From positions 1 through 64,000 of the forward strand of contig DWXC01000022.1 of assembly GCA_019119395.1 (NCBI GenBank): a stretch of 64,000 nt of DNA, read 5' to 3'. The stretch is from Candidatus Borkfalkia stercoripullorum. Its GTDB lineage: Bacteria > Bacillota > Clostridia > Christensenellales > Borkfalkiaceae. A program made the translations under genes and the position numbers. The notes under the pieces are model-generated. The model ran no database searches, was not told the origin of the DNA, and saw only the letters and a program-made list of their open reading frames with translations. Shown in pieces: positions 1 through 9,429 of this stretch (positions are counted from its first letter, which is position 1; each line of letters starts with the position of its first letter).

Positions 1-488
1 GGGGTGCGCAGCGGAAAATTGCGATTTCCCTTGCGCGATTTATTATTTAAATAATTTAAGGCGCGTTCCGAAATCGCTATTTTGGATAAGCGCACTCAAT
101 TTGCCGCATACCTGCGGTCTCAACGGGTGAATGCGGCGCGCATGTTATTGGGTGTGCTCTCAAAAAGCGCGCCGCAGAGGGCAGAGCCCTCAAACTCACG
201 GAAAAATGATTTGTCAGCACAAATCATTTTTCGTGAACACAAATATTTACTTGCGTTTCCGCAAACCACGCTTTGCGGAACAAGCCCCCGATTTGCCGCG
301 ATGAGCGGCCTCGGGCAGGAAAGGTGAATTTGCCGCATTCATAATAGTGTAAGCCCTTAAAAAGCGGCAAAGAGGAAAAATCCGAACGCAGAGCCGTTTG
401 TAAAACGGCGAACGTTGGGGTTTTCCTAAAAATCACGACAAATTGCGTGCCTTTGCGCGCAATTTGTGTGAACACGAACATTTTTCGC
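1..488 (-). repeat. Structured repeat array 1 (minus orientation, cut by left edge)
   Basis: No convincing gene is present before rpsB. Read on the minus strand, this stretch holds two units of the repeat family also found at 7539-8232. Boundary hairpins lie at 433-472 (9-bp stem 439-447/458-466) and 196-237 (13-bp stem 202-214/219-231, identical to the hairpin at 7539-7580). Core hairpins lie at 329-371 (stem 329-336/364-371) and 133-175 (stem 133-140/168-175). Their loops share the pattern TTTTxAGGGC or close variants. Each core is followed on the minus strand by a conserved ATTCACC segment and a small hairpin (CCGC/GCGG in one unit, GCCGC/GCGGC in the other). The array probably continues left of position 1. 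Short open frames here (82-327 and 224-481) follow the hairpins and lack ribosome binding sites, so I treat them as non-coding. Confidence 0.75.
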
Positions 489-517
489 TTGCAAAAAGCA
501 ATAACTTATGCTAAAAT
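489..517 (+). promoter_or_regulatory. Sigma-A promoter of rpsB-tsf
   Basis: TTGCAA at 489-494, a 17-bp spacer, then TAAAAT at 512-517 preceded by an extended -10 TG at 509-510. It lies about 120 nt upstream of the rpsB start and just outside repeat array 1. Confidence 0.7.
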
Positions 518-540
518 AGTAAGGCTATAAAATTCACACC

Positions 541-639
541 GTGCGCGTGCCGCATACCGTTCCCGCCAAAATCTCAACCGGGCGGGCTGATGCGGCTGTC
601 TATGCGCGTGCGGGAGGAAACAAACGGAGGAATATTTTT
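541..639 (+). promoter_or_regulatory. Structured 5' leader of rpsB (candidate r-protein leader)
   Basis: The leader folds into nested stems: GCCGCAT (549-555) with ATGCGGC (590-596), and CCCGCC (562-567) with GGCGGG (581-586). The ribosome binding site GGAGG (626-630) follows. Ribosomal protein operons often carry such leaders for autogenous control. That role here is inference, because no specific Rfam family is recognised. Confidence 0.4.
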
Positions 640-1428
640 ATGGCAGTCATCACAATGAAGCAGCTGCTCGAAGCGGGCGTGCACTTCGGTCATCAGACCA
701 GAAAATGGAACCCCAAGATGAAGAAGTACATCTTCGCTGCGCGCAACGACATCCACATCATCGACCTGCAGCTTACCGTTGGCCTCGTGGAAGAGGCGTA
801 CAAATTCGTCGTCGAAACGGTCAAAGCGGGCAAAAGCATCCTGTTCGTCGGCACGAAGAAACAGGCGCAGGAAGCCATCAAGGAAGAGGCTACCCGTTGC
901 GGTCAGTTCTACATCAATTCCCGCTGGCTCGGCGGCACGCTGACCAACTTCAAGACCATCCGTTCCAGGATCGACCGCCTCAATAAATTGCAGAGGATGG
1001 AAGAATCGGGCGACTTCGACCTTCTTCCCAAAAAGGAAGTCCTCGGGCTGAAAAAGGAAATGGAAAAGCTGGAAGCCAACCTCGGCGGCATCCGCGAGAT
1101 GAAAAACCTTCCCGGCGCCATGTTCATCGTCGACCCGCACAACGAAGATATCGCCGTGCAGGAAGCGAGGAAGCTGCACATTCCGATCGTCGCGATCACC
1201 GATACCAACTGCGATCCCGACCTGATCGACTACGTGATCCCCGGCAACGACGACGCGATCCGCGCGGTCAAACTGCTCTCTTCGGTCATCGCGAACGCGG
1301 TCATCGAGGCCAACCAGGGCGAAGCGGTGAATGCGGAAATGGCGGAAGCGGCGGCGGAAGTTCCCGCGGAATCCATTGAAGAAGTCGTGGAAAACGCTGC
1401 GGAAGAGACCCCCGCGGCGGCTGAATAA
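640..1428 (+). CDS. rpsB: 30S ribosomal protein S2
   Basis: Structural protein of the small ribosomal subunit. The 262-residue product starts [19 protein letters not shown], typical of bacterial uS2, and contains the conserved NPKMKKYIF and FVGTKKQAQ segments. I place the start at the ATG at 640, which follows GGAGG with good spacing. The frame is open upstream to 541, but that extension has no family similarity and overlaps the leader hairpins. The last 35 or so residues form an Ala/Glu-rich acidic tail beyond the usual fold, a common lineage-specific extension. It is followed 30 bp later by tsf, the usual rpsB-tsf operon. Confidence 0.97.
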
Positions 1429-1458
1429 TCGAATACAGAGAATACGGAGGAAAGATAT

Positions 1459-2118
1459 ATGGCTATTACGGCAAGCGACGTAAACGCTTTGAGGCAGAAA
1501 ACGGGCGTCGGCATGATGGATTGCAAAAAGGCGCTCACCGAAGCGAACGGAGATATGGACAAGGCGATCGAGATCCTTCGCGAAAAGGGCATGGCAACCG
1601 CCGCGAAAAAGGCGGGCCGCATCGCCGCGGAAGGCATCGTGGACAGCTACATCCACATGGGCGGCAAGGTCGGCGTTCTCGTCGAAGTCAACTGCGAGAC
1701 CGACTTCGTGGCGCGCGGCGATCAGTTCAAAGAGCTCGTGCACGACATCGCGCTGCAGATCGCGGCGGCAAAACCCCTCTACGTGACCAAAGAAGAAGTT
1801 CCCGCGGAAGTTCTTGAAGAGGAGAAAAAGATCCTCAAGATTCAGGCGATGAACGAGGGCAAGCCCGAAGCGATCGCGGAAAAGATGGTACAGGGCAGGA
1901 TCAAAAAGTATTACGAAGATTTCTGCCTGCTCGAACAGCCGTTCGTGAAAGATTCTTCCAAAACCATCAATCAGCTCATCACCGAAGCGATCGCGTCCAT
2001 CGGCGAAAAGATCACCGTACGCCGTTTTGCGCGCTTTGAAATGGGCGAAGGCATCGAAAAGAAGAAAGACGACCTCGCCGAGGAAGTCGAAAAACAAGTT
2101 TCCAAGATGAAAGGCTAA
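1459..2118 (+). CDS. tsf: Elongation factor Ts
   Basis: Guanine-nucleotide exchange factor for EF-Tu. The 219-residue protein has the N-terminal UBA-like module (residues 1-50, [12 protein letters not shown]) and the signature ETDFV at residues 80-84, which contacts the EF-Tu nucleotide site. It is shorter than the usual 290 or so residues of Bacillus EF-Ts because the core has a single dimerisation subdomain instead of two. Short forms of this kind are known in Thermus and some Clostridia. The start has GGAGG at 1446-1450. It is co-transcribed with rpsB and ends at a strong terminator. Confidence 0.96.
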
Positions 2119-2125
2119 AACCTGC

Positions 2126-2158
2126 AAGGCACACAATTGATTTTTGTGTGCCTTTTTT
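2126..2158 (+). terminator. Intrinsic terminator after tsf
   Basis: Stem GGCACACAA (2128-2136) pairs with TTGTGTGCC (2144-2152), followed by six T residues at 2153-2158. Confidence 0.9.
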
Positions 2159-2230
2159 CAAACATTTCGAAAATTGCATGCGCGCGGCGGAGAGGCGCGC
2201 GCCGCATAAAACAACCGTTCGGAGGGTGTA

Positions 2231-2953
2231 ATGGAAAAACTCAAACCCAAGTACAAGAGGATCATCCTCAAACTTTCGGGCGAGGCGCTCGCGGGGGAAA
2301 GCGGCTTCGGCCTGGACGAAAAGATCATCGCCGGCGTCGTAGACCAGATCGTCCGCATTCACGATATGGGCGTTGAAGTGGGGCTCGTCATCGGCGGCGG
2401 CAATTTCTGGCGCGGCAGGCAGGGCACGCAGATGGACAGAACGACGGCCGACCATATGGGCATGCTCGCGACGGTCATCAATTCCCTCGCCATGCAGGAC
2501 GCGATCGAACAGCGCGGCGTTCCCGTGCGCGTGCAGACGGCGCTGAACATGATCAGCGTTGCCGAACCGTTTATTTTGCGTAAGGCGCTCCGCCATTTCG
2601 AACTCGGCAGGGTCGTCATCTTCGCCTGCGGCACGGGCAACCCTTACTGCTCCACGGATACGGGCGCGGCGCTCCGCGCGGCGGAAACGCATTCCGATAT
2701 TCTGCTCCTCGCGAAGAATGTGGACGGCGTGTACGACAGCGACCCGAAAACCAATCCGGACGCGAAAAAGATCGATAAAATTTCGCACATGGAAGTCATC
2801 AACCGCGGGCTCAAAGCGATGGATACCACGGCGATCACCATGTGCATGGACAATAATATCCCCGTGCTCGCGTTTGCGCTTTCCGAAAAGGACGCGATCG
2901 TGCGCGCCATCTGCGGCGAACGCACGGGAACGCTCATCGCAAGCGAAAATTAA
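2231..2953 (+). CDS. pyrH: Uridylate kinase (UMP kinase)
   Basis: Phosphorylates UMP to UDP in pyrimidine nucleotide synthesis. It is a hexameric amino-acid-kinase-fold enzyme regulated by GTP and UTP in bacteria. The 240-residue protein carries KLSGEAL at residues 14-20 (phosphate binding), GGGNFWRG at 55-62 and [13 protein letters not shown] from residue 69, all hallmarks of bacterial PyrH. The start ATG follows GGAGGG. It heads the run pyrH-frr-uppS-cdsA, with only 14 bp to frr, an arrangement widespread in bacteria. Confidence 0.97.
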
Positions 2954-2967
2954 AGGAGAAAAGAAAA

Positions 2968-3540
2968 ATGATCGACAACGAAAAGGCGCAGGAAGTCATG
3001 CTCGTTTTGGAGGATAAGCTGGATAAAACGGTCAGCGTCCTCCGCGAAGAATTTACAAGCATCCGCGCGGGCAGGGCAAACCCGCACGTGCTCGACAAGA
3101 TCACGGTGGACTATTACGGCACGCCGTCCCCCCTCAACCAGGTGGGCAATATCGCCGTTGCGGACGCGAAATGCCTTGTCATCAGCCCGTGGGACACGAG
3201 CCTTCTGAAAGGCATCGAAAAGGCGATCTTGCAGTCGAACATCGGCCTCACGCCGACAAACGACGGCAAGGTCATCCGCCTGATCTTCCCCGACCTCACC
3301 GAAGAGCGCCGCAGGGAGATCGCAAAGCAGATCAAGGCGCTTTCCGAAGACGCAAAAGTCGCCGCGCGCAACATCCGCCGCGACGCGATGGAGTCTTTCA
3401 AAAAGATGAAAAACGGCAAGGAGATCTCCGAAGACGAGGCGTCTTCGCTCGAAAAAGACGTGGAAAAAACTGTTTCCAAATATATGGAGCAGATCGAAAA
3501 GCATACTGCGGAAAAAGAAAAAGAGATCATGTCCGTATAA
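2968..3540 (+). CDS. frr: Ribosome recycling factor
   Basis: Splits post-termination ribosomes together with EF-G. The 190-residue product is the usual length for RRF. It includes the diagnostic TSIRAGRANPHVLDKI segment near residues 30-45 and the long helical C-terminus (ALSEDAKVAARNIRRDAM) of the three-helix bundle. AGGAG lies just upstream of the ATG. It sits between pyrH and uppS in a tight co-directional operon. Confidence 0.97.
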   Translation: MIDNEKAQEVMLVLEDKLDKTVSVLREEFTSIRAGRANPHVLDKITVDYYGTPSPLNQVGNIAVADAKCLVISPWDTSLLKGIEKAILQSNIGLTPTNDGKVIRLIFPDLTEERRREIAKQIKALSEDAKVAARNIRRDAMESFKKMKNGKEISEDEASSLEKDVEKTVSKYMEQIEKHTAEKEKEIMSV

Positions 3541-3552
3541 CGGGGAGAAGGT

Positions 3553-4248
3553 ATGAAAAGGATCAAACTCCCCACGCACGTCGCCTTTATCATGGACGGG
3601 AACGGCAGGTGGGCGCGCCGCCGCTTCCGCCCGCGCGCTTTCGGGCACAGGGCGGGCGTTCAGAACATGATAAAAGTCTGCTCGCACGCCTTTAAACTGG
3701 GCGTGCGCATCGTTACGGTTTACGCGCTCTCATCGGAAAATTTGTCCCGCCCCAAAGAGGAGCTGGACGAGCTTTTCGATCTTTTCCGCTCGTATTTCGG
3801 CAAAAAACGCGACCGCCTTACCGAACTGGAAGTCAAGGTCAACGTGCTCGGCGATATTTCCGTTTTGCCGGAGGATATTCAGGAAAGCGTTCTCGAAGTG
3901 GTGCAGGAAACGTCCGGCTATACGGACGGGCTGATGAATATCTGCCTCAATTACGGCGCCCGCGGGGAGATCGTTCGCGCGGTCAATGCCGCCGTCGCCT
4001 GCGGCAGGTTCGTGGACGAGACGAGTTTCAAAGACCTTTTGTCCACGGCGGGCTTGCCCGACCCCGACCTCATCATACGCACGGGCGGGGAGGTGCGCCT
4101 TTCCAACTTTTTGCTGTATCAGGCGGCGTATTCCGAACTGTATTTTTCCAAAAAGATGTGGCCGGAGTTTTCAAAAAGAGATCTCGAACGTGCCATCGAA
4201 AACTATTCCGCGCGCGACAGGCGTTTCGGCAACGTAAAAGGGGAATGA
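3553..4248 (+). CDS. uppS: Isoprenyl (undecaprenyl) diphosphate synthase
   Basis: cis-Prenyltransferase that builds undecaprenyl diphosphate, the lipid carrier for peptidoglycan. The 231-residue protein has the catalytic DGNGRWA motif at residues 15-21 (Asp15 binds Mg/diphosphate), GHRAG at 31-35, YALSSENLSRP near residue 55, and the C-terminal RTGGEVRLSNFLLYQ...SELYF block. In the usual RTSGE motif the Ser is Gly here, a minor variation. It is followed by cdsA after a single base, so translational coupling is likely. Confidence 0.95.
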   Translation: MKRIKLPTHVAFIMDGNGRWARRRFRPRAFGHRAGVQNMIKVCSHAFKLGVRIVTVYALSSENLSRPKEELDELFDLFRSYFGKKRDRLTELEVKVNVLGDISVLPEDIQESVLEVVQETSGYTDGLMNICLNYGARGEIVRAVNAAVACGRFVDETSFKDLLSTAGLPDPDLIIRTGGEVRLSNFLLYQAAYSELYFSKKMWPEFSKRDLERAIENYSARDRRFGNVKGE

Positions 4249-4249
4249 G

Positions 4250-5158
4250 ATGAAAAAGAGACTCATCACCGGCATCCTCTATATCGGCGTCATCGTCGGG
4301 TTCTTCTTTTTGAGGAATATCCACCCTTGGTTTTTCGGCATACTCGTGTATGCCTTTTCCCTCATCGGCACGTATGAAATGGTGCACGCTTTTTCTTATC
4401 GGAAAGTGAAGGAAGACGGAACGGAAGAACCGCCCGCATTCGAAATGGCGCTGTCGCAAAAGATCGCCGTGTTTGCGTTTGCGGCGCTCTTTACCCCCGT
4501 TTATTACCTCGTGGAATGGCTTGCGGGCGAAGGGGTCGGATACCGCGGCATGCTCATCCTCGCTTTTGTCTTCGCTCTGGCGCTTTTGTGCCTTTTGGTG
4601 TTCGACCATAAGCGCTGTTCGCTGCAGGGTGCGGGCGGGGCGATGCTGTGCGCGTTTTATCCCACCGTGCTTCTGGCCACGATGCTGCTTGCCAACGACC
4701 TCGCGGCGGGCACGCTGGCGCTTTTGATCATCTTCGTCATCTCGCCCGTGGCGGACACTTTTGCGTTCGTCGTGGGGAGCATTTTCAAGGGCAAAAAACT
4801 TTGCCCGAACATCAGCCCGAACAAGACGGTTTCGGGCGCGGTGGGCGGCATCGTGTTCGGCACGGGCGCAAGCGTGCTTTTATACTGGCTGTACACGCTG
4901 TGCAGCGATTACGTATACACGGGGCTGGGCAGCGGATACGCATGGGCGCCGTGGGTGATTTTTGCGGCGATCGGGCTGATCGCTTCGGTCATGACCGAGT
5001 TCGGAGACCTTGCGGAGAGCATCATCAAGCGCAAAGTGGGCGTCAAAGACATGGGCAAACTCCTGCCCGGCCACGGCGGCATACTCGACAGGATCGACGG
5101 CACGCTGTTTGCGAGCACGTTCGTGTACATCGTGTTCGAGATATTCGTCCTTTTATAA
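4250..5158 (+). CDS. cdsA: Phosphatidate cytidylyltransferase
   Basis: Integral membrane enzyme making CDP-diacylglycerol from phosphatidate and CTP. The 302-residue protein has many hydrophobic segments and the C-terminal signature region DLAESIIKRKVGVKDMGKLL followed by PGHGGILDRID, which carries the conserved metal/CTP-binding Asp residues. It starts one base after the uppS stop. The pyrH-frr-uppS-cdsA order matches many bacteria. A strong terminator follows, so dxr likely has separate or read-through transcription. Confidence 0.94.
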   Translation: MKKRLITGILYIGVIVGFFFLRNIHPWFFGILVYAFSLIGTYEMVHAFSYRKVKEDGTEEPPAFEMALSQKIAVFAFAALFTPVYYLVEWLAGEGVGYRGMLILAFVFALALLCLLVFDHKRCSLQGAGGAMLCAFYPTVLLATMLLANDLAAGTLALLIIFVISPVADTFAFVVGSIFKGKKLCPNISPNKTVSGAVGGIVFGTGASVLLYWLYTLCSDYVYTGLGSGYAWAPWVIFAAIGLIASVMTEFGDLAESIIKRKVGVKDMGKLLPGHGGILDRIDGTLFASTFVYIVFEIFVLL

Positions 5159-5164
5159 AGAGAA

Positions 5165-5192
5165 AAAATACCCGCCCGGGCGGGTATTTTTC
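5165..5192 (+). terminator. Intrinsic terminator after cdsA
   Basis: Nearly perfect palindrome AAAATACCCGCCC/GGGCGGGTATTTT, 5165-5190, with further T residues. It separates the pyrH-cdsA operon from dxr-rseP. Confidence 0.85.
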
Positions 5193-5258
5193 GTATTGTG
5201 CGGCGCGGGGCGCATAAATACCGCATCCCCGCGCGTAAACTATTTACGGAGAGAAGAT

Positions 5259-6398
5259 ATGCGAAAGAAGATCGCCCTGATCGGCAGTACCGGCTCGATC
5301 GGCAGGCAGGTGATAAACGTCGTAAACAGATACCCGGAACGCTTCGAGCTCGTCGCGATCGCCGCCAACACGGGCGGAGAACTGTTTCAAAGACAGATGT
5401 CGGAGCAAAAGCCCGCATTCGCCGCGCTGCGCGCGGAAGGCGAAACGCCGTGCGGCGTGCCCGCGGGCGTGCGCTTTGCGCGGGGCGAAGGGGCGTTCGA
5501 AGAGGCGTGCGCCTATCCGTCCGCCGACGTCATTTTCGTCGCCGTGACGGGCTTTGCGGGGTTGAAAGCGGCGCTTTCGGCCATCAATGCCAAAAAGGTC
5601 GTGGCGCTCGCGAACAAGGAGTGCCTCGTTGCGGGCGGGGAGATCGTCATGCCCGCGGCGAAGGCTGCGGGCGTGAAGATCCTGCCCGTTGACAGCGAGC
5701 ATTCCGCAATCTGGCAATGCCTCGCCTTCGACAGGGGCGCGCCCTTTTCCAAACTGATACTTACGGCGAGCGGCGGCGCGCTGCGCGACGTACCTCTCGG
5801 TAAACTTTCCGAAATGACGGCGAAAGACGCGCTCGCGCACCCGAATTGGGACATGGGCGCAAAGATCACCGTAGACTGCGCCACCATGCTCAACAAGGGC
5901 TTCGAAGTCGTCGAGGCGATGCGCTTATACGATGCGCCGCTCGAAAAGGTAGAGGTCGTCATGCACCGCGAAAGCATCGTGCATTCCATGGTCGCGTTCG
6001 AGGACGGCGCGGTGCTCGCGCAGATGAGTTATCCTTCCATGGAAGTCCCGATACAGTTGGCGCTCACCTACCCCGAAAGGCTTCGGGCGAACGTCGCGCC
6101 GCTCGATCTGGCAAAGATCTCCGCACTGCATTTTTCCGCGCCCGATCCCGCGCGCTACCCCTGTTTTACGCTCGCCCTCGAATGCGCGAAGCAGGGCGGG
6201 GATATGCCCTGCGCGCTCAACGCCGCGGGCGAAGTCGCCGTGCAGGCATTTTTGCGGGGGCAAATAAAATACACGCAAATTGCCGAAATTATAGAAAAGA
6301 CCCTCCAAAAGACCGTCCGCCGCAAAGCGGAAAGTTACGCCCTTTTGGAGGAAACGGACGGGGCCGCGCGCCGCACGGCGCGCTCCTTCCTGCCGTAA
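5259..6398 (+). CDS. dxr: 1-deoxy-D-xylulose 5-phosphate reductoisomerase
   Basis: Second enzyme of the MEP (non-mevalonate) isoprenoid pathway, converting DXP to MEP with NADPH. The 379-residue protein has the NADPH-binding GSTGSIG at residues 9-15, the metal/substrate loop TASGGALRD, the flexible PNWDMGAKITVDCATM(L)NKG block and the HRESIVHSMV segment. I use the ATG at 5259 preceded by GGAGAG. The frame is open back to 5010, but that part overlaps cdsA and has no similarity. rseP starts 9 bp after the stop. The dxr-rseP pairing is common in Firmicutes. Confidence 0.97.
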   Translation: MRKKIALIGSTGSIGRQVINVVNRYPERFELVAIAANTGGELFQRQMSEQKPAFAALRAEGETPCGVPAGVRFARGEGAFEEACAYPSADVIFVAVTGFAGLKAALSAINAKKVVALANKECLVAGGEIVMPAAKAAGVKILPVDSEHSAIWQCLAFDRGAPFSKLILTASGGALRDVPLGKLSEMTAKDALAHPNWDMGAKITVDCATMLNKGFEVVEAMRLYDAPLEKVEVVMHRESIVHSMVAFEDGAVLAQMSYPSMEVPIQLALTYPERLRANVAPLDLAKISALHFSAPDPARYPCFTLALECAKQGGDMPCALNAAGEVAVQAFLRGQIKYTQIAEIIEKTLQKTVRRKAESYALLEETDGAARRTARSFLP

Positions 6399-6407
6399 CG
6401 GAGCGAT

Positions 6408-7535
6408 ATGTGCAATCTGCTTTCTTTCAGCAGCGTAATGGGCACGATCGGCTCGGTGCTTCTGGCGATCCTCATCCTGCTCGCCATGATCACCGTGCAC
6501 GAATTCGGGCATTACGTCGCGGGCAAGATCTTTCGTTTTAAAATCAACGAATTCGCGATCGGGTTCGGCCCGGCCGTTTTCAAGCATAAAAAAAAGAACG
6601 GCGAACTCATTTCCGTCCGCTGCCTGCCCCTCGGCGGATACTGCGCTTTTGAAGGCGAGGATTCCGACGAGGCGCACCCCGACGCGTTCAACAACAAAAA
6701 ACCGTGGCAGCGCATCATCGTTCTGCTCGCGGGCGCGTTCATGAATTACGTGCTCGCGCTCCTGCTCATCGTCGTCTCCTTTTTCGCCTGCGGCCAGCTT
6801 TTGCTGATGACGTATACCGAACCTTCCGACGTCGCCGTGTATAACGAATATTCCCTGCACGACAGGGACGTCATCCTTTCCTGCGAGGGGAAGGACATAT
6901 ATCTTACGAGCGATCTGATGGACGCGCTCGAGGGCAAAAAGCAGGGCGATCTTGTCACATTCGTCGTATCGCGTGAGGAAAACGGCGGGCGATCCGAGCG
7001 GGAAGTGCAGGTCATGCTCCGCGCCGACGCGTCGTTCGACGATGTGACCGATACGGCAGCGCTCTGGAACGCGCTCGGCATAGAGCGGCAGTATTCGGAG
7101 GACGGGCAGAGTTTTACCTACCGCATTTATTCCGCGTCCTATAAAGGGTTCGGATTTTTCGAGACGATCGGAAGGTCGTTTACCTATTCTTTCCGCATCG
7201 GCGGCACGATCTTCAAAGTCCTGGGGCAGCTGCTTACGGGCGATCTGGGGCTGTCCGCGTTCGGCGGGCCGGTCAGCACCATAAAACTGACTTCGCAGAT
7301 CGCTTCGCGCAGTTTGCAGCAATTTTTGGAAATTTCCGCCTATATCGGCGTCAACCTTGCGGTTTTCAACCTGTTGCCGATTCCCGCGCTCGACGGCTCG
7401 AAAGTCGTCTTTACCGCGATCGAGTGGGTGCGCGGCAAGCCGATCAACCGCAAAGCGGAAGCGATCATCCATGCGGTCGGCTTCGTGCTCCTTTTGGGCT
7501 TTGCGGTGCTTGTGGACGTGTTGCAGTTGTTTTAG
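6408..7535 (+). CDS. rseP: RIP zinc metalloprotease (site-2 protease)
   Basis: Membrane-embedded protease that cleaves transmembrane anti-sigma factors and remnant signal peptides. The 375-residue protein has HEFGH (residues 31-35) inside the first transmembrane helix as the zinc site, a PDZ-like periplasmic region around residues 140-200, and the second metal-ligand motif PALDGSK near residue 325, followed by a last transmembrane helix. The start ATG at 6408 follows CGGAG. A second in-frame ATG at 6438 is possible but lacks an equally good ribosome binding site. The stop lies 3-4 bp before repeat array 2, with no separate terminator visible. Confidence 0.93.
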   Translation: MCNLLSFSSVMGTIGSVLLAILILLAMITVHEFGHYVAGKIFRFKINEFAIGFGPAVFKHKKKNGELISVRCLPLGGYCAFEGEDSDEAHPDAFNNKKPWQRIIVLLAGAFMNYVLALLLIVVSFFACGQLLLMTYTEPSDVAVYNEYSLHDRDVILSCEGKDIYLTSDLMDALEGKKQGDLVTFVVSREENGGRSEREVQVMLRADASFDDVTDTAALWNALGIERQYSEDGQSFTYRIYSASYKGFGFFETIGRSFTYSFRIGGTIFKVLGQLLTGDLGLSAFGGPVSTIKLTSQIASRSLQQFLEISAYIGVNLAVFNLLPIPALDGSKVVFTAIEWVRGKPINRKAEAIIHAVGFVLLLGFAVLVDVLQLF

Positions 7536-7574
7536 AGATTCACGAAAAATGATTTGTGCTGACAAATCATTTTT

Positions 7575-7802
7575 CCGTGATGTGAAAGACAACCCGCCGT
7601 CGGCGTTGCGCCGAGCGGCGGGATTTTCTCTCTGCGCGGCATTTTTGAGGGCACGCATAGTATGCAATGCCGCGCATTCACTCTTTCCCCGCAAGGCAAA
7701 GGATTGCCAAACAGGGGTGCGCCGCGGAAAAGCGCGGTTTTCCTTGCGCGATAAAATGTAAAACCGTTCACACATTTTGTTTTGTGCTGACAAAACAAAA
7801 TG
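7575..7802 (+). repeat. Long direct repeat, copy 1 (unit A)
   Basis: About 228 bp repeated at 8006-8232 with only a few substitutions and one length change. It contains a nested CCCGCCG/CGGCGGG hairpin, the core hairpin with the AGGGC loop, a GGCA/TGCC mini-hairpin and the left part of the next boundary hairpin. Confidence 0.9.
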
Positions 7803-8005
7803 TCGTGAGTTTGATGGGAAACCCGAGCGGTTTTTCCCTCTTTGCGGCACTTTTAAGGGCACGCAAAATATATAGTGCCGCAAATTCACCCTTTCCGTGA
7901 GCCAAAGCATTGGCAAATTGAGTGAACGGGCAAAAAGTGTCATTTTTGCCCGTTCGAAAAAGAAGTATTTGGCTTCACACTCGGCGGGATGCCGCCTGCA
8001 ATTTA

Positions 8006-8232
8006 CCGTGATGTGAAAGACAACCCGCCGTCGGCGTTGTGCCGAGCGGCGGGATTTTCTCTCTGCGCGGCATTTTTGAGGGCACGCATAGTATGCAATG
8101 CCGCGCATTCACTCTTTCCCCGCAAGGCAAAGGATTGCCAAACAGGGGTGCGCCGCGGGAAAGCGCGGTTTCCCTCGCGCGAAAAATATAAAACCGTTCA
8201 CACATTTTGTTTTGTGCCGGCAAAACAAAATG
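8006..8232 (+). repeat. Long direct repeat, copy 2 (unit C)
   Basis: Second copy of the 7575-7802 sequence. The high identity between A and C compared with unit B suggests a recent duplication or gene conversion inside the array. Confidence 0.9.
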
Positions 8233-8252
8233 CAAGTATAATAGAGTAAAAA

Positions 8253-8281
8253 ATCGGCGGCGCAATTTTTGCGCCGCCGAT
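8253..8281 (-). terminator. Terminator of the 8302-9429 lipoprotein gene
   Basis: 13-bp stem ATCGGCGGCGCAA (8253-8265) with TTGCGCCGCCGAT (8269-8281). On the minus strand it is followed by a T run (8247-8252). Confidence 0.85.
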
Positions 8282-8301
8282 GCGGTTTGTTTGCCGGTTT
8301 T

Positions 8302-9429
8302 TTATTCGCCGGAAGGGGCGGTGTAACTCGCGTCCTGCAATACGTAGAGGAACGCGCCCATGCCGTAGGCAAGGTTCATTTCTATGCGCATGGGGAGATT
8401 CCTGTAACGGTTGTTGGACGCGTTCGTGCTGCGCGCCGCATAGTCTACGGTGTGCGTCTGCCCGTTGTTCTTTCCCGATACGGCAAAGTTGACCACGCAG
8501 GTCGAGATGGACGTGCCCGTCTCTTCTTCCCCCTCGGAACCCTCTTCGCCGTCCGTTCCTTCTTCCGAATCGCTGCCCGTGCCGGTATCGGGCAGGGGCT
8601 GCCCGTCCATCGTAAAACTGTAATTGCGCGCGACCACTTCCGAGCAGGAAAGGGTCACGTACTGTCCGCCGGCCGCCCCGCTCACGACGGTCACGGTGTT
8701 GGAACTGTCCGCTTCGAAGGCGAGCCCGCGCGCCGAAAATATGAGCTGCGCGGTGTCGAAAACCGAATAGCGGTCTGTCAGGTCGGAATAACTCGTTTCG
8801 CCTGCGTTGAACGTTCCCACAAACACGCGCGAATTTTCTTCGGGCAGCGTTTCCGCGATCGAATCGGAATTGTCCGTCACCGTCACGGTCGCGCGGGAAG
8901 CGTCCTCATTGTATACGGTTTTCGTGGTATAACTGTAAATGACGATACTCCCGTTTTGCCGGGGGGTGTGCGAATAGGTGGTCGTCGTGCTTTCCAGCGG
9001 GGTCATGCCGTCGAGCGCGTCGCGGAACCAAACAGACGTTGTAATGGTATCCGCGGGCGCGCCCGTGTCGCCGCCGAACGCGTAGACGAGCTCTCCGTTT
9101 TGCAGGATAGACGCGCTCACTTCGAGCACGCTCGTAAGGCGGTATACGTTGTTCGCCGTAAATCCGCTCTCCGAACGGTAGGAGGCGACCGACTCCGTCG
9201 TCACCGTGTAGGTGCCCGAAACGTTCGCGTAAGAGGGGGCGTTGGGCAAAGAAGAATCGGGCGCTTCGAAGCGCACGTCGTAGGTGAGCCGTTCGTAAAA
9301 CGTCTCGTACCCGCCGCCGGCGTTCGTCTGCCAGTTTCTGTTGAGCGCCACCGTGACCCGGGAAGAGCACGCGGCAAAGGCGAAAACGCACGCGAGGAGC
9401 GCGGCGGCCGCCGTCAATTTCTTTTTCAT
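8302..9429 (-). CDS. Lipoprotein of unknown function
   Basis: Unrecognised 375-residue secreted lipoprotein. The signal peptide begins MKKKLTAAAALLACVFAFAAC, with the lipobox Cys at residue 21, so it should be anchored to the outer face of the membrane. I chose the start whose signal peptide is intact rather than the upstream frame extension. The mature part looks like beta-rich, Thr/Ser-rich sequence without a known motif. A low-complexity Gly/Ser/Glu/Asp linker (around residues 300-325) precedes a short C-terminal domain, and the linker may be flexible. The gene is divergent from addB, with a TTTACA/TATACT promoter at 9469-9497. Function is unknown. Confidence 0.8.
   Translation of the reverse strand: MKKKLTAAAALLACVFAFAACSSRVTVALNRNWQTNAGGGYETFYERLTYDVRFEAPDSSLPNAPSYANVSGTYTVTTESVASYRSESGFTANNVYRLTSVLEVSASILQNGELVYAFGGDTGAPADTITTSVWFRDALDGMTPLESTTTTYSHTPRQNGSIVIYSYTTKTVYNEDASRATVTVTDNSDSIAETLPEENSRVFVGTFNAGETSYSDLTDRYSVFDTAQLIFSARGLAFEADSSNTVTVVSGAAGGQYVTLSCSEVVARNYSFTMDGQPLPDTGTGSDSEEGTDGEEGSEGEEETGTSISTCVVNFAVSGKNNGQTHTVDYAARSTNASNNRYRNLPMRIEMNLAYGMGAFLYVLQDASYTAPSGE

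Follow-up and report, generated by a model that had tools for sequence, protein, structure and literature searches.

At two places in the first 64,000 nucleotides of contig DWXC01000022.1 of Candidatus Borkfalkia stercoripullorum (GenBank assembly GCA_019119395.1, forward strand; hereafter the window), palindromic repeat units stand between genes. What are these units, structured RNAs or mobile DNA? A previous reading of the letters alone (the sequence-only reading) had placed five units at the two loci, named their stems, and seen in them a novel family under selection for structure. In the present analysis, all five units were found at the positions and in the orientations given there as matches to a covariance model, and the named stems with their exact partners are readable in the sequence. 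The repeat is a genuine family of non-coding units of ~190–220 nt with five helices, interspersed between genes. We consider it probable that the family is non-autonomous mobile DNA that is recognized by its hairpins and organized like the REP/REPIN/BIME elements.

Structure and covariation of the repeat units

The covariance model, R1, has 210 positions and 54 pairs, and its seed was 26 units of the host genome. The first helix, P1, is bounded by T-C-A-C and G-T-G-A and has a variable upper stem. A column in its 3' arm is unpaired and holds a pyrimidine in all 26 seed units, and the flanking pairs are both standard in 24 of the 26. P2 (GAG...CTC) is very variable in length. P3 has ~8–11 bp and a long conserved loop around AAGGGCAC, P4 is a small hairpin within a weaker TTCAC/GTGAA pairing, and P5 has a 6-nt loop. 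Two of the five units of the window, u1 and u2 (Table 1), were folded as single-stranded DNA (ssDNA), and none of 200 shuffles was equally stable (z = -8.5 and -8.2, respectively). By eye, a second structured module, with the core AAAAATCTCACACCGC...GCGATTTTT and further stems, lies inside P3 of one unit type. This module is present at locus L006 (1069-1180) and at L012, L026, L029, and L030, and it is also found in a different species of the genus (L109, genome G030).

The helices covary. Alignment A1 (26 units, MAFFT) was made without reference to the structure; 92.7% of its cells were paired, compared with 79.9% in shuffles, and 175 cells were changed on both sides, compared with 56.1. The covariation score was 0.351, and it was 0.056–0.118 when the partners were slid by 1–3 columns. 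Further pair types (44) were not above shuffles (44.3). Alignment A3 (98 distinct rows) was fitted to the model and is hence biased towards it; paired cells were 91.5% versus 69.2% in shuffles, both-side changes 1057 versus 296, pair types 123 versus 104, and the score 0.510 versus at most 0.109 after sliding. The shuffle and slide controls leave shared ancestry in the statistics of both alignments. P1 and P3 vary almost solely as whole Watson-Crick pairs; among the P3 cells of A3, 301 showed changes in both partners, 1 in a single partner, and 71 were unpaired. The same layout occurs with quite different helix letters in other genera and families.

The compensatory changes that the sequence-only reading had described are thus above the shuffled and slid controls. 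Its rule that loops are constant while stems change was borne out only by half: among columns with at least 20 letters, at least 90% identity was found in 49/104 paired and 28/83 unpaired columns.

Base pairing on the two strands

Structured RNAs tolerate G-U pairs, but not A-C mismatches. The 31 tRNAs of the host genome, as called by ARAGORN, which favors paired stems, had 608 Watson-Crick, 46 G-U, and 0 A-C among 654 cells. Terminator-like hairpins (n=56, from the window and genome G014) had 552 Watson-Crick, 46 G-U, 1 A-C, and 5 other combinations among 604 cells. For the repeat, model columns were counted in 178 rows, each of which is distinct in its own alignment. P1 (173 rows, 2563 cells) had 2495 Watson-Crick, 22 G-U, 28 A-C, and 18 other cells, and P3 (162 rows, 1727 cells) had 1603, 3, 15, and 106, respectively. 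P4 (151 rows) had 729 Watson-Crick, 5 G-U, 4 A-C, and 11 other cells, and in P2, 33 G-U stood against 70 A-C. G-U exceeded A-C in P5 (62:19) and in the outer P4 pairing (35:5), which is partly due to a one-column offset of two P5 types. When P1 hairpins were folded singly, 6 G-U and 3 A-C were found (57/85 units parsed). The single-fold pattern for P4 matched no unit, and P4 rests on the column counts.

A fairer comparison is the strand test, in which each piece and its reverse complement were folded. In the controls, the true strand had more G-U (tRNAs, 9.25 vs 5.36% reversed; terminator-like hairpins, 7.72 vs 2.88%) and also the lower energy. The G-U share of whole units was 4.76% as read and 4.86% reversed in the host genome (n=62), and 5.16% and 4.90% in relatives (n=89). 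P1 had 1.13% as read and 3.07% reversed.

These comparisons give no sign that the strand read functions as an RNA. The absence of a G-U excess on that strand, together with the change of P1 and P3 as whole pairs, points to DNA hairpins. The proposal of selection at the RNA level was not supported, since G-U is as rare as A-C in P1 and P3 and neither G-U nor folding prefers the strand read. RNA was thus ruled out as the leading explanation by these tests, and is retained below as a rival because of the ambiguous P2, P3, and P5 and the behavior of the reversed strand.

Arrangement of arrays and gene context

Orientations were counted for matches at E <= 1e-6 in the host genome and E <= 1e-8 in relatives, with repeated places dropped. 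Six stretches with distant unit pairs, in which weak opposite-strand matches overlap strong ones, were left out. The fetched loci of the host genome held 80 matches and 42 adjacent pairs: 16 >>, 13 <<, 13 >< (inward), and 0 <> (outward). The 104 matches in relatives gave 38 adjacent pairs: 10 >>, 9 <<, 19 ><, and 0 <>. Overall, inward pairs were 32/80 and outward pairs 0/80, and single and tandem-only units exist too. Therefore, P1 is on the outside of an array and the AT-rich 3' end on the inside. Among the uncounted stretches, a match at L192 (262-386, 20.1 bits) would create an outward pair if real. Centers resembling that of the window at 37-60 were seen by eye in other arrays.

The two units that meet at the center of an array are always clearly different. 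The mean distance within the 13 facing pairs of the host genome was 0.425, compared with 0.342 on random re-pairing (p about 0.0006). Their closest pair was at 0.31, which was matched by 0.3% of re-pairings, whereas tandem neighbors were as close as 0.03. Unit types were compared by raw distances and by four clusters, as a two-cluster split (79 + 1) was uninformative; by cluster label, 11/13 facing pairs were unlike (p = 0.05). The 19 facing pairs of relatives had distances of 0.32–0.55.

Gene ends were taken from a retrained gene finder built for this analysis. Where an outer end borders the 3' side of a gene (n=21), its position relative to the stop codon is -19 to +12 nt in 19 cases and 120 nt in one, and in one more it overlaps the gene by ~40 nt. 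Of 23 outer ends that face a 5' end, 11 lie 17–20 nt before the start codon and the others at -5 to 170 nt. By hand count, 18 of the 22 arrays with both flanks called are between co-directional genes, 3 between convergent genes, and 1 between divergent genes. This co-directional share is not unusual, as 31/45 neighboring gene pairs in the window are co-directional (p = 0.25). Both unit orientations occur within one array between co-directional genes.

At L031 (586-1461), the upstream gene runs ~40 nt into a partial unit, and its orthologue in G014 stops before the spacer; the end of the gene thus appears to have been replaced by the insertion. At L181 (1440-1700, genus g26), a unit stands directly after a promoter-like sequence and before a gene, in a possible leader position. 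We take the start of this gene to read like McsA.

Distribution among genomes

The host genome (G000; 1.87 Mb, 92% complete) had 92 covariance-model matches at E <= 0.01, some of which are weak, including a few on the opposite strand. Further copies were thus present in the host genome, and also in relatives: matches were obtained in 33/36 other genomes of the genus, where high counts are lower bounds since up to 39 candidates per genome were scored, and in 1/24 genomes from other families. A lack of further copies, which the sequence-only reading had named first among the findings that would refute it, was therefore not observed. Larger samples were searched with stricter filters. In the order sample, 23/297 genomes had matches. 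Two of them belong to the genus (the host and one more), 14 to two further genera of the same family, and 7 to four different families. Some of the matches in other families are single, near 1e-5, and uncertain; G065 has adjacent copies. In the class sample, 3/391 genomes had a match, all of the same family. A search of named genomes with an exact pattern yielded 18 stretches, from Candidatus Borkfalkia avistercoris or uncultured Clostridia bacterium. Phages and plasmids gave no match, and viral contigs gave none to the exact pattern. Within the samples searched, the family was found in one order only.

In agreement with the sequence-only reading, which knew no named family of this kind, the window had no match in Rfam 15 at the gathering score. 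A looser threshold gave 5 matches in 5 loci (E 0.14–0.67), all under the gathering scores. No paper title in the literature search, which left most subscription literature outside, names the family or repeats of Borkfalkia genomes.

Many contigs of the host genome start or end inside a unit or within a few hundred bases of one (at or near the start, C2, C4, C10, C16, C20, C34, and C39; at or near the end, C3, C13, C14, C20, C23, and C27). The repeats therefore probably break the assembly, and their copy number is underestimated.

Dispersal and turnover

Whole blocks occur at unrelated loci. Many units have copies that are 93–98% identical at other loci of the host genome, although some of these pairs, located at contig ends, may represent a single place split by assembly. 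Multi-unit blocks recur as well: 738 nt at 88% between L006 and L012, in opposite orientation, 676 nt at 88% between L012 and L029, and 579 nt at 94% between L012 and L026. In 79 block matches (at least 230 nt, at least 80% identity), the similarity extends at most 16 nt beyond the outer P1 end, with an overrun of more than 12 nt at 2/277 ends. Classical MITEs carry terminal inverted repeats. Here, the outer ends are P1 hairpins, 35/46 of which start with TTCAC, but the stems at opposite ends of an array are usually unlike.

Two genes next to the window arrays were followed in other genomes (the best 30 loci of 35 genomes with rseP and of 37 with rpsB). Units lie downstream of rseP in 7/30 loci, one of them weak (27.5 bits), with differing numbers and types, and near rpsB in 5/30 loci. 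Since units are present at these genes in some species only, the sites come and go between species. G014 has orthologous spacers without the element, which are too divergent for exact junctions to be read.

Hairpins also appear to be exchanged singly. Outside most of P1, units u1 and u3 share 96% identity over 202 nt, but their P1 stems differ, which suggests that single hairpins have been swapped between units. By eye, the rseP unit of G012 shares P2-P4 with u1 and has other P1 and P5 modules, of which P5 is u2-like. Tandem units are 96.7% identical at L032 (1096-1462) and have equal model scores at G024 C1 (58-455) and G034 C16 (5502-5933), which suggests recent tandem duplication.

Search for a mobilizing enzyme

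Four kinds of enzymes were considered and set aside. Matches to Y1_Tnp (PF01797), the transposase of IS200/IS605, were found in 21/37 genomes and in none of the host contigs. They were absent from the unit-rich G001, G003, G017, G021, G032, and G035, and numbered 5, 3, and 4, some fragmentary, in G002, G005, and G033, the three unit-free genomes of the genus. The presence of Y1 thus does not track the element, and the suggested link to IS200/IS605 was not upheld. A suggested reverse-transcriptase link fared no better: RVT_1, which would represent a group II intron, retron, or diversity-generating retroelement, matched in 4/37 genomes, with no match in the host genome, and does not track the element. 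The same was true of PF01548 (4/37 genomes, none in the host), the marker for an IS110 bridge-RNA derivative. For tyrosine recombinases, which were searched in the host genome alone, the single Phage_integrase match is partial, a fragment at the edge of a contig. An autonomous copy would have a gene enclosed by inward units. In six stretches from other genomes that were inspected by eye for such a copy, no protein was transposase-like; the proteins there appeared housekeeping-like, and no integrase was seen beside the units.

Features of the window

The contig opens inside an array, with the end of a plus-strand unit, an AT-rich center, and then two minus-strand units (Table 1). The outer P1 hairpin of the unit at 253-472 is 167 nt upstream of rpsB (640-1428).

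Table 1. Positions of the repeat and adjoining features in the window.
Positions	Strand	Feature	Evidence
1-36	+	3' end (P5 hairpin) of a unit, clipped by the contig start	R1 model positions 175-210, 21.8 bits; D3 repeat
37-60	.	AT-rich, partly palindromic array center (TTTATTATTTAAATAATTTAAG), meeting place of plus and minus units	Sequence
61-237	-	Unit, cluster 2, short P2	R1 90.2 bits, E 6.9e-28
253-472	-	Unit, cluster 1	R1 90.1 bits
7539-7749	+	Unit u1, starting 3 nt past the rseP stop codon	R1 192.7 bits; DNA fold z -8.5
7540-7580	+	u1 helix P1 (TCACG...CCGTGA), one unpaired pyrimidine in 3' arm	Fold; covariation helices 1 and 2; column 39
7584-7632	+	u1 helix P2 region	Fold; covariation helix 3
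7633-7676	+	u1 helix P3, conserved loop around GAGGGCACGCATAGTATGC	Fold; covariation helix 4
7695-7708	+	u1 helix P4 (GGCAA...TTGCC)	Fold; covariation helix 6
7716-7749	+	u1 helix P5 region, 6-nt loop GCGCGG	Sequence; covariation helix 7
7767-7955	+	Unit u2	R1 189.1 bits; DNA fold z -8.2
7974-8180	+	Unit u3	R1 169 bits
8197-8232	+	Truncated sixth P1 hairpin, array end	Sequence; D6 repeat
8253-8281	.	GC-rich terminator-like hairpin past the array, T-run on the minus-strand side; separate from the repeat	

Discussion

The sequence-only reading of a structured family, mobile or RNA, stands as far as a structured, covarying family is concerned, and is not supported with regard to RNA-level selection and the Y1 and reverse-transcriptase links. 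We favor a non-autonomous family of DNA elements that is probably mobilized through its hairpins. Each half of ~200 nt consists of a row of five hairpins, P1-P5, and the basic dispersed form is made up of two different halves facing across the AT-rich center, with P1 hairpins at both outer ends. A putative enzyme would recognize the hairpins, the outer P1 above all, as folded DNA, either single-stranded or cruciform; the conserved loops, the linkers, and the unpaired base in P1 may serve as cues. This enzyme would move or copy whole arrays into intergenic spacers. Selection on the DNA hairpin, hairpin-templated correction of one arm from its partner, or the two together may preserve the complementarity of the stems at the level of DNA. 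Near-identical inward pairs would be lost, presumably because long perfect palindromes are unstable. We speculate, more tentatively, that this might be a new class of mobile DNA, with a row of five hairpins recognized by shape, convergent heterodimeric halves, a new kind of enzyme, and correction of palindromes at the DNA level; taken as a whole, this proposal is rather unlikely.

Several observations weigh against the mobile-DNA explanation. No mobilizer was found among the Y1, reverse transcriptase, IS110, and tyrosine recombinase families searched, in a genome that is 92% complete and with DDE families outside the search. No target-site duplication, a further hallmark of classical MITEs, was apparent by eye in the array flanks, where the comparison genome was too divergent to provide an exact empty site. 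The turnover was seen between species, and no movement was observed inside a single one. When hairpins were folded singly, G-U exceeded A-C in P2 (27:5, 52 units), P3 (28:3, 47 units), and P5 (20:6, 68 units), although this procedure counts optional G-U pairs in loops, and reversed strands have as many. Furthermore, the reversed strand folds better: the strand read had the lower energy in 7/62 host units and 20/89 others, and the advantage of the reversed strand was about 5–6 kcal/mol on average. A function of the opposite strand as RNA or ssDNA is possible, although this strand has a lower G-U share than the controls.

These last points are also those that speak for a functional RNA, on the strand read or its opposite, in which the units would be cis-acting elements of untranslated regions or a dispersed non-coding RNA under selection for RNA structure. 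The strong covariation also speaks for such an RNA, and the closeness of 19 outer ends to stop codons indicates that the units are probably transcribed with the gene. However, the whole-unit G-U share is about equal on both strands and under the true-strand level of tRNAs and terminator-like hairpins, opposite orientations stand in one array between co-directional genes, and Rfam contains no match. We regard a functional RNA as improbable. The almost exclusively two-sided changes in P3 and the helix swapping in the G012 unit would also suit passive DNA, which spreads by homologous recombination or duplication alone, its stems kept by quasi-palindrome correction without recognition by any enzyme. 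Passive spread is difficult to reconcile with whole blocks at unrelated loci and with loops and linkers common to other genera and families, which suggest selection; we doubt that it accounts for the family.

A true REP/REPIN or IS200/IS605-derived element, moved in trans by a RAYT or Y1 transposase, is decidedly improbable. REPs and REPINs resemble the present arrays in that they form inverted dimers, often heterodimers, and clusters in tandem, as described in the portions of PMC3733652 and PMC3116915 drawn on here. However, in 26 units, no GTAG, CTAC, CGTC, or GACG was found in the 6 nt that adjoin any of the five helices on the outside, and Y1_Tnp has no match in the host and is present in the unit-free genomes. 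Least probable of all, and in our opinion hardly credible, are bidirectional terminators or mRNA-stabilizing hairpins that spread because they are useful. Their location between genes is suitable, and 7 terminator-like sites were found in 7500-8320, compared with 2.0 in shuffled sequence; 2 of these 7 are both strands of the hairpin outside the array. On the other hand, most arrays are between co-directional genes, where termination would be polar, although that share is not unusual.

We therefore return to hairpin-recognized mobile DNA. The helices of this family covary almost entirely through the exchange of whole Watson-Crick pairs, and the strand read carries no RNA signal, so that covariation alone would have misled. 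The family is also a natural data set on the maintenance of complementarity in DNA palindromes and on the need for facing copies to be unlike. Moreover, the comparison of element-rich with element-free species of the genus offers a route to the mobilizer.

Among known systems, integron attC sites are DNA hairpins that are recognized by structure and unpaired bases, with the stem sequence tolerated. The present units differ in that no integrase was seen by eye beside them in the six stretches, and one partial Phage_integrase match was obtained in the host genome. The bcr1-bcr18 repeats of Bacillus cereus, compared by description only, belong to a different host group; they are likewise interspersed and intergenic, some with conserved secondary structure, and often lie in untranslated regions or operon spacers, according to the part of PMC3446304 drawn on here. 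BOX, RUP, and SPRITE of Streptococcus pneumoniae, also compared by description only, are structured interspersed repeats that are judged to be parasitic, are restricted to a few species, and probably affect co-transcribed genes; the portion of PMC3049150 used here mentions no inward-only heterodimer rule.

The guess of a REP-like mobile palindromic element was the closest of those made from the sequence alone, although the GTAG/CGTC tags and the Y1 match are wanting. As characterized in the sections of PMC3116915 and PMC3733652 used here, REPs, BIMEs, and REPINs have units of 20–40 bp with stems of 5–13 bp and a GTAG or CGTC tag, unlike the halves of ~200 nt with five hairpins and no tag in the present family. 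G-T pairing is often found in the stems of GTAG REPs and is rare in P1 and P3, and GTAG REPs also differ in that this genome has no RAYT/Y1 match; the CGTC families also seem to be without a dedicated transposase (PMC3116915, PMC3733652). The family is not a member of REP/REPIN/BIME by tag or transposase, though it is organized alike. Both are intergenic palindromic DNA in inverted dimers and tandem clusters (PMC3116915, PMC3733652). Most REP families prefer heterodimers (PMC3733652, PMC3116915), which the authors relate to large DNA hairpins being unstable (PMC3733652), and the facing halves differ here as well.

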